Below are positions 4,595 through 32,108 of a stretch of 32,475 nt of DNA, one piece after another. A model generated the notes under the pieces. That model was not told the origin of the DNA, did not search any database, and worked only from the letters and a program-made list of their open reading frames with translations. Both the position numbers and the translations under genes were made by a program. This stretch comes from Pseudomonadota bacterium (GTDB taxonomy: Bacteria; Pseudomonadota; Gammaproteobacteria; Ga0077536). The DNA lies in the NCBI GenBank assembly GCA_029977665.1, contig JAPOKK010000013.1:1-32475 (forward strand), given 5' to 3'. Numbering within the stretch: position 1 is the first letter of the stretch; each line of letters opens with the position of its first letter.

Positions 4595-6040
4595 TCAGGC
4601 GCTGGCGCCGGCCGCGATCCAGTTGCCGTGGAAGCCGGGCGGAACCCGGTGCGGTAACGTGACCGTGGCGAGCGGCGGTGCAGTGAAGTCCGCGGCGTCG
4701 AGCACGGTGAGCGCCGTGGTGTCGTCGTTCATGTCGACGACCAGCCCGAGCAGCCAGCCGTCGTCCTCGGCCGCATCCGCGCTGCGCGGCACGAACACGA
4801 ACTCGCCCGGGTGGCGCCCAGGGCCGAAGTCGTGCACGGCGCGCTCACCGCGCTCGAGGTCGTGGCGGAACAGGCGCGTATCGGTGACCAGCCCGGGGCC
4901 GGCGGCGGCCGCCGCCATGCAGTAGGCATAGCGGTAGGGGCTGCCGGTGCGACGTTCGTCGTAGCGCGGGAACTCCTGGCCTTCGTTATCGACGATCTCG
5001 CGCGCGACCGCCGCGGCACCGGGGGCCAGCGTCCAGCGCTCGAAGCTCATGCGCGAACCGTCGGGGCCATCGTAATGGTCGTCGAACATGCGATCGTGGG
5101 CGACGACATCGACCACGACGCTGCCGTCGGCGCGTTCGAACGCGTTGGCGGGGTGGAACACGAAGCAGGGATCGACCGCGTACCAGCGCATGTCCGCCGC
5201 CGTGCCGGTACGCGGCAGCAGGCCGACGCGTGCCGGGTGCTCGGGGTTCCAGCGGTAGGGGAACGGGTGTCCGGCGAGCAGCAGTGCCATGGAGAACGTG
5301 ACCGGCAGGTCGAGCACGATCACGTAGCGTGGCGTGATGGCGCAGTCGTGGATGCAGGGGCCGTCGGTGACGGTAATCGGTTCTTCCCGAACGACCCGGC
5401 CGGCGGCGTCGACCACGGTGTGCCACACGGTGTCCTGCACGTCGCCGCGGTAGCAGATGGCATGCAACTCGCCGTTCGCCGGGTCGCGATGCGGATGCGC
5501 GGAGTAGGGGCCGGCGAGACCGCCGGCGAAATCGTCGTAGCGCTGCGTTTCGAGGTTGTCGTCCAGCAGTACCGGCGCGGTGCCGGCCTCGACCAGCGCC
5601 CAGGTACGCCCGGCATGCGCGATGACGTTGGTGTTGACGACGCCGCGCTCGCGCCCGGGCGGCGCCGGCACCGCGGTTTCGCCGAGCGCGGTACTGACCG
5701 CGTCCGAGTGGATCCAGCGATTGCGGTACCACGTGGCCCGGCCGTCGTGCAGGCGTATGCCGTGCACCATGCCGTCACCGACGAACCAGTGGTGCGTGGC
5801 GGGGTTCGGCGCGACCAGCGGATTGGGCCCGATGCGCAGGTAGCGGCCGTCGAGCGCCGGCGGCAGGCAGCCGGTGACGGGCAGGTCGGTGAGGGTGTGC
5901 TCGGCCGTCAGCGGGGTGTGGATACCGCTCAGGTAGGGATGTGCGTCGCCCCGCGTGCGGACCGCGTTGGCGGCGCGGGCGACGCCGCGCGCGCCGGCCG
6001 TGATCGAGGAGCGGATGAGTTTCTCGACTTTGCTCGACAT
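4595..6040 (-). CDS. carotenoid oxygenase family dioxygenase (RPE65/lignostilbene dioxygenase type)
   Basis: This 481-residue non-haem Fe(II) dioxygenase cleaves C=C bonds in carotenoids, apocarotenoids or stilbenes. The four iron-binding histidines expected of the seven-blade propeller fold are visible: H182 (AHPHRD), H231 (IHDCAITP), H296 (FVFHPANAFE) and H471 (FHGNW). Family blocks GPNP (71-74) and FVGDGMVHG (86-94) are also present. The frame is open to 6136, but the start is placed at ATG 6040: GGGAGGT lies 5-6 bp before it, and the upstream extension would read through the operator. It is divergent from a TetR gene with a 35-bp dyad 18 bp upstream of its start, so repression by that TetR is likely. 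No carotenoid biosynthesis gene is visible here, so an apocarotenoid or aromatic stilbene substrate is equally possible. Confidence 0.93.
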   Translation of the reverse strand: MSSKVEKLIRSSITAGARGVARAANAVRTRGDAHPYLSGIHTPLTAEHTLTDLPVTGCLPPALDGRYLRIGPNPLVAPNPATHHWFVGDGMVHGIRLHDGRATWYRNRWIHSDAVSTALGETAVPAPPGRERGVVNTNVIAHAGRTWALVEAGTAPVLLDDNLETQRYDDFAGGLAGPYSAHPHRDPANGELHAICYRGDVQDTVWHTVVDAAGRVVREEPITVTDGPCIHDCAITPRYVIVLDLPVTFSMALLLAGHPFPYRWNPEHPARVGLLPRTGTAADMRWYAVDPCFVFHPANAFERADGSVVVDVVAHDRMFDDHYDGPDGSRMSFERWTLAPGAAAVAREIVDNEGQEFPRYDERRTGSPYRYAYCMAAAAAGPGLVTDTRLFRHDLERGERAVHDFGPGRHPGEFVFVPRSADAAEDDGWLLGLVVDMNDDTTALTVLDAADFTAPPLATVTLPHRVPPGFHGNWIAAGASA

Positions 6041-6057
6041 GGGACCTCCCGGGCGCT

Positions 6058-6092
6058 CGCCGCCTATGTTTACGATGTAAACATAGGCGGCG
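6058..6092. promoter_or_regulatory. operator 1: 16-bp perfect inverted repeat between carotenoid oxygenase and tetR
   Basis: Two perfect 16-bp arms (6058-6073 and 6077-6092) flank a 3-bp GAT centre. The core half-sites are TATGTTTAC and GTAAACATA. This is the most AT-rich DNA nearby and lies between divergent start codons, as expected for an operator of the adjacent TetR protein. The dyad is seen directly; the binding partner is inferred. Confidence 0.85.
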
Positions 6093-6113
6093 CATGGTAA
6101 CGTTGTCAACATG
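6093..6113. promoter_or_regulatory. operator 2: imperfect copy of the same dyad overlapping the tetR start codon
   Basis: CATGGTAAC and GTCAACATG are separated by GTT. Seven of nine positions pair, with the same 9-3-9 geometry as operator 1 and the shared half-site GTnAACAT. The last three bases are the tetR ATG, so binding here would directly autorepress the regulator. The two dyad centres are 28 bp apart. Confidence 0.6.
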
Positions 6114-6692
6114 GGAACGCAGCAGCACAAGGCCACCTATCACCACGGTGACCTGCGCCGCGCGCTGATCGAGAGTGCCCTGCAGCTGCTCGAGACGCGC
6201 GACGACGGCGATGTCGGCCTGCGCGAGGTCGCCCGCCACACCTGCGTCAGTGCAACCGCCGTCTACCGGCATTTCCCCGACAAGGCGGCGCTCTATGCGG
6301 CCCTCGCCGCGGAAGGTTTCGAGCGCCTGGCCGACGCCCAGCTCGCGGCCGCCCGTCGGGCGCGCGAGGACAGCGCGGCGTTCCGCGCGAGCGGCCAGGC
6401 CTACGTGCGTTTCGCGCTGGCCAACCCGGCGCTGTTCCGCCTCATGACCAGCCACATGCACCGGGACGGCAGCACCGGTGTCCTGCTTGCCGACAATCGC
6501 GCCGCGCGCCTGCTACGCGAGCAGGTCGCTCGGCTCATGCCGGCGGCGAGCGAGGCGGAGCGTGCGGTGACGGTGGTGCAGGCGTGGGCCCTGGTACACG
6601 GACTGGCCGTGCTGATGCTGGGCGGACGCATCCCGCCGGACGCCGCACTGATCGAGGCGGCGGTCAACGAGTTCCGGCCCTGGCGGCACTGA
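6111..6692 (+). CDS. TetR/AcrR family transcriptional regulator
   Basis: This 193-residue one-component repressor has an N-terminal YHHGDLRRALIESALQLL helix, then a helix-turn-helix at about 38-60 (VGLREVARHTCVSATAVYRHF) ending in FPDKAALYAAL. An all-helical ligand domain follows, of the class carrying FALANPALFRLM (the WHG-type C-terminal domain). No in-frame start exists upstream of ATG 6111, and no Shine-Dalgarno sequence is visible. The message may therefore be leaderless, or translation may be weak. It is divergent from the carotenoid oxygenase across two dyads, the classical arrangement of a local repressor with its target. The ligand is probably the oxygenase substrate or product, which is inference. 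Confidence 0.93.
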   Translation: MGTQQHKATYHHGDLRRALIESALQLLETRDDGDVGLREVARHTCVSATAVYRHFPDKAALYAALAAEGFERLADAQLAAARRAREDSAAFRASGQAYVRFALANPALFRLMTSHMHRDGSTGVLLADNRAARLLREQVARLMPAASEAERAVTVVQAWALVHGLAVLMLGGRIPPDAALIEAAVNEFRPWRH

Positions 6693-6705
6693 GGGTGCCG
6701 CCAGG
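6679..6705. terminator. stem-loop over the tetR stop codon
   Basis: CCTGGCGGCAC (6679-6689) and GTGCCGCCAGG (6695-6705) are perfect complements with a 5-nt loop containing the tetR TGA. No T-run follows, so it may be a non-canonical terminator or a barrier between the convergent tetR and fbp genes. Confidence 0.5.
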
Positions 6706-31202: not shown

Positions 31203-32108
31203 ATGATGGATGCCATCCGCAACGCCCAACTCGCCGCGATCCGCACGCTGCTGCGCGATCGGCCGATCGCGCAGCCCGGCGCTTCCTTTGCCGAGATGCG
31301 GCGCGGCCTCGATGCCCTGGGTGACCTTAGTCCGCCGTTGCCGGGCGTCACCGCGACCGCGGTCGATGCCGGCGGCGTAGCCGCTACCTGGTTCACGGCC
31401 AGCGGCGGCGATAGTGGTCGCATCGTGCTCTACCTGCACGGCGGCGGTTACGTGATGGGCTCGGTGCGTTCGCACCGGCCGCTGCTCGAGCGGCTGGCGC
31501 TTGCCGTCGAGGGGCGCGTGCTGGCGCTGGATTACCGTCTCGCGCCGGAGGCGCCGTTTCCGGCCGCGGTGGAGGATGCGTGCGCCGCCTGGCACTGGCT
31601 TCTCGCCAGCGGTGCGGCGGCCGAGCGCATCGCCGTCGCGGGCGATTCCGCCGGCGGCGGCCTCGCCGTGGCCCTGCTCGTCGCGCTGCGCGATGCGCGG
31701 GTCGCGCTGCCTGCCTGTGCCGTACCGATCTCGCCCTGGACGGACATGACGGCGAGCGGCGCATCGATGCAGACCCGTGCAGCGCGCGATCCCATGGTGC
31801 AACGCGCGGCGCTGCTCGCGATCGCCGCGACCTACCTCGACGGCGCCGCGCCGGAGACGCCGTTGGCATCACCGCTCAATGCCGAACTCGATGGCCTGCC
31901 GCCCTTCCTGATCCAGGTCGGCGACGCGGAGACGCTGCTCGACGACAGCACGCGCCTCGCTGCACGGCTCGAAGCCGCGGGGGTCGACGTGACGCTGGAA
32001 GTATGGGACGACATGATCCACGTGTGGCATCTGTTCGCGCCGATCCTGGATGCCGGCCAACAGGCGATCGCACGAATCGGCGACTTCGTGCGTACGCATG
32101 CTGGCTGA
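31203..32108 (+). CDS. alpha/beta hydrolase, hormone-sensitive lipase family esterase
   Basis: This 301-residue esterase of the HSL (family IV) group hydrolyses short-chain carboxylic esters. The oxyanion-hole motif is HGGGY (79-83). The nucleophile elbow is GDSAGG with Ser149, and the remaining triad members are Asp241 (QVGDAETLLDD) and His273 (DMIHVWHLF). The N-terminal cap helices are normal in length. Two adjacent ATG codons (31203 and 31206) could start it. It is the last gene of the plus-strand catabolic run, 53 bp after the LLM oxidoreductase. Because Baeyer-Villiger enzymes make esters or lactones, an esterase such as this is a natural partner, but the link is contextual only. Confidence 0.93.
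   Translation: MMDAIRNAQLAAIRTLLRDRPIAQPGASFAEMRRGLDALGDLSPPLPGVTATAVDAGGVAATWFTASGGDSGRIVLYLHGGGYVMGSVRSHRPLLERLALAVEGRVLALDYRLAPEAPFPAAVEDACAAWHWLLASGAAAERIAVAGDSAGGGLAVALLVALRDARVALPACAVPISPWTDMTASGASMQTRAARDPMVQRAALLAIAATYLDGAAPETPLASPLNAELDGLPPFLIQVGDAETLLDDSTRLAARLEAAGVDVTLEVWDDMIHVWHLFAPILDAGQQAIARIGDFVRTHAG

Follow-up and report, generated by a model that had tools for sequence, protein, structure and literature searches.

Conserved twin dyads between a carotenoid oxygenase gene and a divergent tetR gene: predicted operators that enclose the predicted oxygenase promoter

In the window (the whole stretch of DNA that was analysed, 32,475 bp) a carotenoid oxygenase gene and a tetR-family gene diverge from a short gap that carries two neighbouring inverted repeats, here called O1 and O2. 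The question was what these repeats are: operators of the adjacent regulator, promoter elements that happen to look like dyads, or, in the case of the longer one, a hairpin or a double binding site.

The two genes and the gap between them

The oxygenase gene (4595-6040, minus strand) encodes a protein of the RPE65 family (Pfam PF03055, E 3.4e-113), predicted to be an 8'-apo-carotenoid 13,14-cleaving dioxygenase with a score of 730.3 bits against NCBIfam NF052295, for which the curated equivalog cut-off is 675. The product of the ccoR-like regulator gene (6111-6692, plus strand) contains TetR_N (PF00440) and TetR_C_33 (PF13305), both above the Pfam cut-offs. Its structure model (nine helices, mean pLDDT 88.7, built from 35 homologues) is consistent with membership of the TetR family, the N-terminal helix-turn-helix and the all-helical C-terminal domain both being predicted. 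The top solved match to the model was 3on2_A (Z 17.5, rmsd 3.0 over 177 residues, 32% identity), a protein of Rhodococcus RHA1 described solely as of unknown function; 1zk8 was tied with it (Z 17.4, 16% identity). No match above the cut-off was obtained with a crtI model in the bacterium's own genome, which makes it doubtful that the substrate is made by the cell itself. A rhodopsin model had no match anywhere, the controls included.

A gap of 70 bp (6041-6110) separates the start codon of the oxygenase gene (ATG, 6040-6038, minus strand) from that of tetR (ATG, 6111-6113). The preliminary description had placed in this gap a 35-bp dyad with perfect 16-bp arms at 6058-6092, and the repeat scan bore this out: the O1 arms (6058-6073 and 6077-6092) are 16 nt each, 100% complementary and separated by a 3-nt spacer. 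O1 is the longest dyad of the window. The runner-up has 13-nt arms, and arms of 13 bp were also the maximum found in 25 Markov shuffles of the window. Two other repeats were noticed in the window. A perfect 26-bp palindrome without spacer (31250-31275) lies within the open reading frame 31203-32108 and is inside the range of the shuffles, and a dyad with 11-bp arms (6679-6705) spans the tetR stop codon; it has no T-run, and may be a weak terminator.

O2 (CATGGTAAC-GTT-GTCAACATG, 6093-6113) had been described as a second dyad of the same 9-3-9 design. It is present and ends in the tetR ATG, but only seven of its nine arm pairs are complementary, and the unit conserved in both dyads is 19 bp long with an 8-3-8 layout. 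In these terms the predicted O1 operator, drawn as 21 bp (6065-6085), has its core at 6066-6084 and its centre at 6075, and the predicted O2 operator has its core at 6094-6112 and its centre at 6103, overlapping the tetR start codon; no strand is assigned to either. The distance of 28 bp between the centres stood as described. Three of the four half-sites match the proposed GTnAACAT exactly, and the fourth, GTTACCAT (left half of O2), has one mismatch. The dyads fall slightly short of filling the whole gap, contrary to what had been thought, since 6041-6057 is the leader of the oxygenase gene and carries its Shine-Dalgarno sequence (GGGAGG, 6045-6050, minus strand). The twin-dyad observation as such is confirmed.

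Conservation of the dyads and the predicted promoter inside them

Conservation beside orthologous tetR genes was the point on which the preliminary description had made its proposal depend. A scan of 84,980 species genomes was carried out and the best 80 TetR relatives (45-93% identity) were retained; the copy in the window itself and four relatives belonging to the window's family bring the number of loci to 85. These include near-copies and represent 81 distinct operator regions. In a best-match search with thresholds of at least 12/16 for O1 and at least 13/15 for O2, both dyads were found in all 85 loci, with a centre spacing of 23-28 bp, a count that is partly circular because the scoring patterns were drawn up after the gap alignments had been viewed. 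At the same thresholds none of 85 upstream control regions and none of 1700 shuffles passed. A sequence-blind scan, which asked for two like dyads of 8-3-8 layout at a distance of 20-35 bp, put 77 of the 85 loci above 99% of the null. An RPE65 gene is divergent from tetR in 83 of the 85 loci (78 of the 80 best relatives). Of 398 Pseudomonadota genomes sampled evenly, 114 contained a TetR relative with E up to 1e-12; among the 29 best new loci examined, seven had a close divergent oxygenase (52-57% identity), and all seven carried both dyads.

Across the 81 distinct regions, positions -9 to +9 of both dyads had a high information content; the middle bases and a small number of arm positions (+3 and +4 of O1, -6 of O2) were exceptions. 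Just outside these limits the information content was at most 0.72 bit and mostly under 0.5-0.6 bit, indicating that the operator is a 19-bp unit of 8-3-8 layout. O2 is non-coding in 16 of the 85 loci, the window included, where the sole in-frame start lies at or beyond the end of O2; the remaining loci allow a start within O2 or upstream of it, in one frame in 35 loci and in another in 34. As the frame of O2 differs between species, or O2 is non-coding, the constraint acts on the DNA and not on a shared amino-acid sequence.

The only promoter-like site reported by a consensus scan of 5950-6250 was TTGACA-18-TATGTT on the minus strand, directed towards the oxygenase gene. Its -35 hexamer (6104-6109, minus strand) lies in the right half of O2 and its -10 hexamer (6080-6085, minus strand) in the near half of O1, with an 18-bp spacer. 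At the -35 position TTGACA was found in 83 of the 85 loci and TTGACG in two, and the conservation of O2 is owed in part to this hexamer. The distance between the operators is 26 bp in 46 loci, 27 bp in 28, 28 bp in eight and 23 bp in three, that is 26-28 bp in 82 of 85. These distances probably arise because the -35 and -10 hexamers sit in O2 and O1 with a promoter spacer of 16-18 bp. At a spacing of 26, TATGTT with a 16-bp promoter spacer was present in 38 of the 46 loci; at 27 and 28 the fit was more mixed, and at 23 (the three Parasphingopyxis loci) the promoter alignment fails. In most lineages, we infer, it is the promoter spacer that fixes how far apart the operators stand. A promoter-only reading leaves unexplained why the left half of O1, situated past both oxygenase hexamers, is conserved as well.

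Judged by its sequence, the promoter of tetR is weak. Inside O2 a possible extended -10 element, TGGTAACGT (6095-6103, plus strand), can be discerned, which the consensus scan of 5950-6250 did not report. The presence of this element and the lack of a Shine-Dalgarno sequence suggest that the tetR mRNA may be leaderless, with a predicted 5' end at 6111 or just before it.

Repression model and competing explanations

Taken with this conservation, O1 and O2 are very probably the operators of the divergent TetR protein, which would act as a CcoR-like local repressor of the (apo)carotenoid oxygenase. The earlier prediction of twin operators for the adjacent TetR is thus supported by the occurrence of both dyads in every locus compared. 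Its further claim, strong repression of the oxygenase, draws support by analogy from an experimental precedent: according to the accessible portion of the report, disruption of ccoR in M. kansasii raises expression of the divergent cco1 about 100-fold and leaves the crt genes tested unchanged (PMC9861118). In M. kansasii ccoR-cco1 and M. tuberculosis Rv0653c-Rv0654, as in the window, a TetR/AcrR gene is divergent from a carotenoid cleavage oxygenase (same portion of PMC9861118), and the likeness of the window to the CcoR system is one of gene arrangement. The window has explicit dyads, whereas the main text of that paper, as far as it was accessible, contains no palindrome, operator or inverted repeat term. 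For Rv0653c a motif is listed with an e-value of 1.1E-18, under the authors' cut-off, in the accessible portion of PMC4482099.

In the proposed mechanism one TetR dimer would bind each 19-bp dyad, and dimers on O2 and O1 would together shield the oxygenase promoter, beginning at the -35 hexamer and reaching slightly beyond the start point, which is predicted to lie near 6073. Since O2 holds the -35 and O1 the -10 and the start region, bound repressor would shut out RNA polymerase. Repressor on O2 would also cover the start region of tetR, with which O2 overlaps, and so limit its own synthesis; autorepression, as had been predicted, is therefore plausible. A hydrophobic ligand would release the repressor, most likely an apocarotenoid that is substrate or product of the enzyme. 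Apocarotenoids are the first inducer candidates because NACOX1 of Novosphingobium aromaticivorans, an apo-carotenoid 13,14-dioxygenase in the accessible portion of PMC5133782, yields beta-apo-13-carotenone and its locus shares the gene pair and the dyads. The product name points to NACOX1 being SARO_RS18775 of plasmid pNL2, which is recorded as an 8'-apo-carotenoid 13,14-cleaving dioxygenase and is 54% identical to the window enzyme; on pNL2, as in the window, a TetR gene is divergent from the oxygenase gene and both dyads are present. The same portion of PMC5133782 gives no account of how NACOX1 is regulated.

The divergent regulator and the palindromic operators in a shared gap are as in classical TetR and QacR (accessible portion of PMC4482099). 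The window differs from these systems in that each of two equal 19-bp dyads includes one of the target promoter's hexamers and in that one dyad overlaps the start codon of the regulator. The arrangement is thus of a known kind, and the explicit overlap of operators and promoter is unusual. Neither a description of these operators nor one of such an operator-promoter overlap was found in a literature search limited to open-licence PMC papers.

It could be argued that O1 alone is an operator, and that O2 is an overlap of the oxygenase -35 with the extended -10 of tetR which forms a dyad by coincidence. The near-invariant TTGACA at O2 agrees with this, and so does the left half of O2, whose deviation from the ideal half-site is nearly always the same (A or G at -6, A at -4), as that of a -10 element would be. 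On the other hand, the conservation of O2 covers the same -9 to +9 as that of O1 and ends as sharply, and relatives that guard other genes also carry paired like dyads, some of which lack TTGACA. We consider the coincidence unlikely. That the protein is an activator of the oxygenase is a thought raised by the fact that some TetR proteins act as activators; activation is hard to reconcile with predicted sites lying over the -35 as well as the -10 of the oxygenase promoter and with the repressor role of the M. kansasii counterpart, and we regard it as highly improbable.

The full length of O1 (6058-6092) allows yet another explanation, namely that the long arms are the functional unit, either as an extended operator for two dimers, like that of QacR, or as an RNA hairpin. 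The perfect 16-bp arms speak for it, and so does the congener, in which seven of the eight outer pairs are kept although one arm has an insertion and the other a substitution. Outside the genus the picture is different: against eight of eight outer pairs in the window, only one or two of eight are left in three other family members, and the mean in the other orthologue loci is 2.1 of eight, about that expected by chance. The extended arms are confined to the window's genus. With respect to RNA, the oxygenase mRNA likely starts inside O1, and no hairpin was found in its leader, which folds no better than its shuffles (z 0.39). A functional role of the long arms thus appears very improbable, and a QacR-like single long palindrome for two dimers was rejected because the outer arms lack conservation beyond the genus. 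Operators of 19 bp, one in O1 and one in O2, remain the preferred reading.

A probable one-locus switch and its relatives

The preliminary description had offered the motif as a means of finding other members of a regulon. In the own genome, O1 with up to three mismatches had no match besides this locus, and O2-type sites with zero to two mismatches were found only at O2 and O1. Other matches with two or three mismatches occurred at six places (O2, three mismatches) and at 14 distinct places (relaxed palindrome, two mismatches). The relaxed palindrome outnumbers its reversed control in many genomes (the own genome and 36 family genomes were searched), with and without ccoR, and for this reason its matches were not taken as a regulon. 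The exact O2 consensus occurred at five places in the 398 phylum genomes, all five between tetR and an oxygenase gene. One mismatch added ten places: three adjoin a TetR relative (one of them is this window, and one is without oxygenase), and seven have neither tetR nor oxygenase within about 1.5 kb. In these searches no regulon beyond this locus emerged, and the switch is read as a local, one-locus one. Clustering of open reading frames across 80 loci revealed no third partner shared beyond tetR, the oxygenase and their antisense frames, apart from neighbourhood genes common to the Novosphingobium-like loci.

In the TetR tree the ccoR clade comprises 90 proteins (support 98/98). The window TetR groups with that of the alphaproteobacterial Parasphingopyxis (support 100/99) and apart from members of its own family (L005 and L006), suggesting that the tetR-oxygenase pair has probably moved between classes. 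The TetR of an Acidobacteria-labelled contig (L107) hardly differs from the one in a Hyphomonas genome (L102); the contig is likely misbinned. Outside the clade, 27 more distant TetR relatives were compared, and 14 of them have paired like dyads above 99% of the null, 26-33 bp apart, from which it appears that the twin layout may be older than its link to this oxygenase; the half-sites of these pairs often differ, and several of the relatives are near-copies. In two members of the window's family (L009 and L010) a distant RPE65 relative (27-29%) is paired with a divergent TetR of another type (35-39% identity); twin dyads are present here too, at a distance of 31-32 bp. On a Streptomyces plasmid (L133) a carotenoid oxygenase gene has a divergent TetR gene (31% identity) and an unrelated dyad, TTACGTAACATCGTTACGT. 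No divergent TetR is annotated at the Methylobacterium and Lichenicola oxygenases, and tblastn found no CcoR-like gene there or at one further locus.

Two Rhizobiaceae retain the ccoR-like gene and both operators and have no divergent oxygenase. The divergent gene in these loci (L064:4317-4934 and L056:4143-4937, both minus strand) encodes a membrane protein of the VC0807 family (NF041646; 154 bits in L056 and 165 bits in L064), the two being 59% identical to each other. This raises the tentative idea that the clade has a fixed twin-operator cassette, in which regulator and operators may move as a module and the output gene can be exchanged while the sites are kept. Were this so, the loci would share an inducer, probably apocarotenoid-like, and VC0807 proteins would have a new role in handling it.

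The unit formed by O1, O2, tetR and the oxygenase gene is real, strongly conserved and of a known kind. It supplies an explicit, conserved operator and promoter architecture for a regulator-enzyme pair on which published work was found only for the genetic effect, in M. kansasii, and does so in bacteria that are easier to handle. The architecture suggests that the spacing of operators can be set by the spacer of the promoter they enclose. The switch is dedicated to one locus rather than to a regulon and is linked to the 13,14-cleaving enzyme that has been characterised in N. aromaticivorans. It would make a compact sensor module that lends itself to a screen for the inducer.
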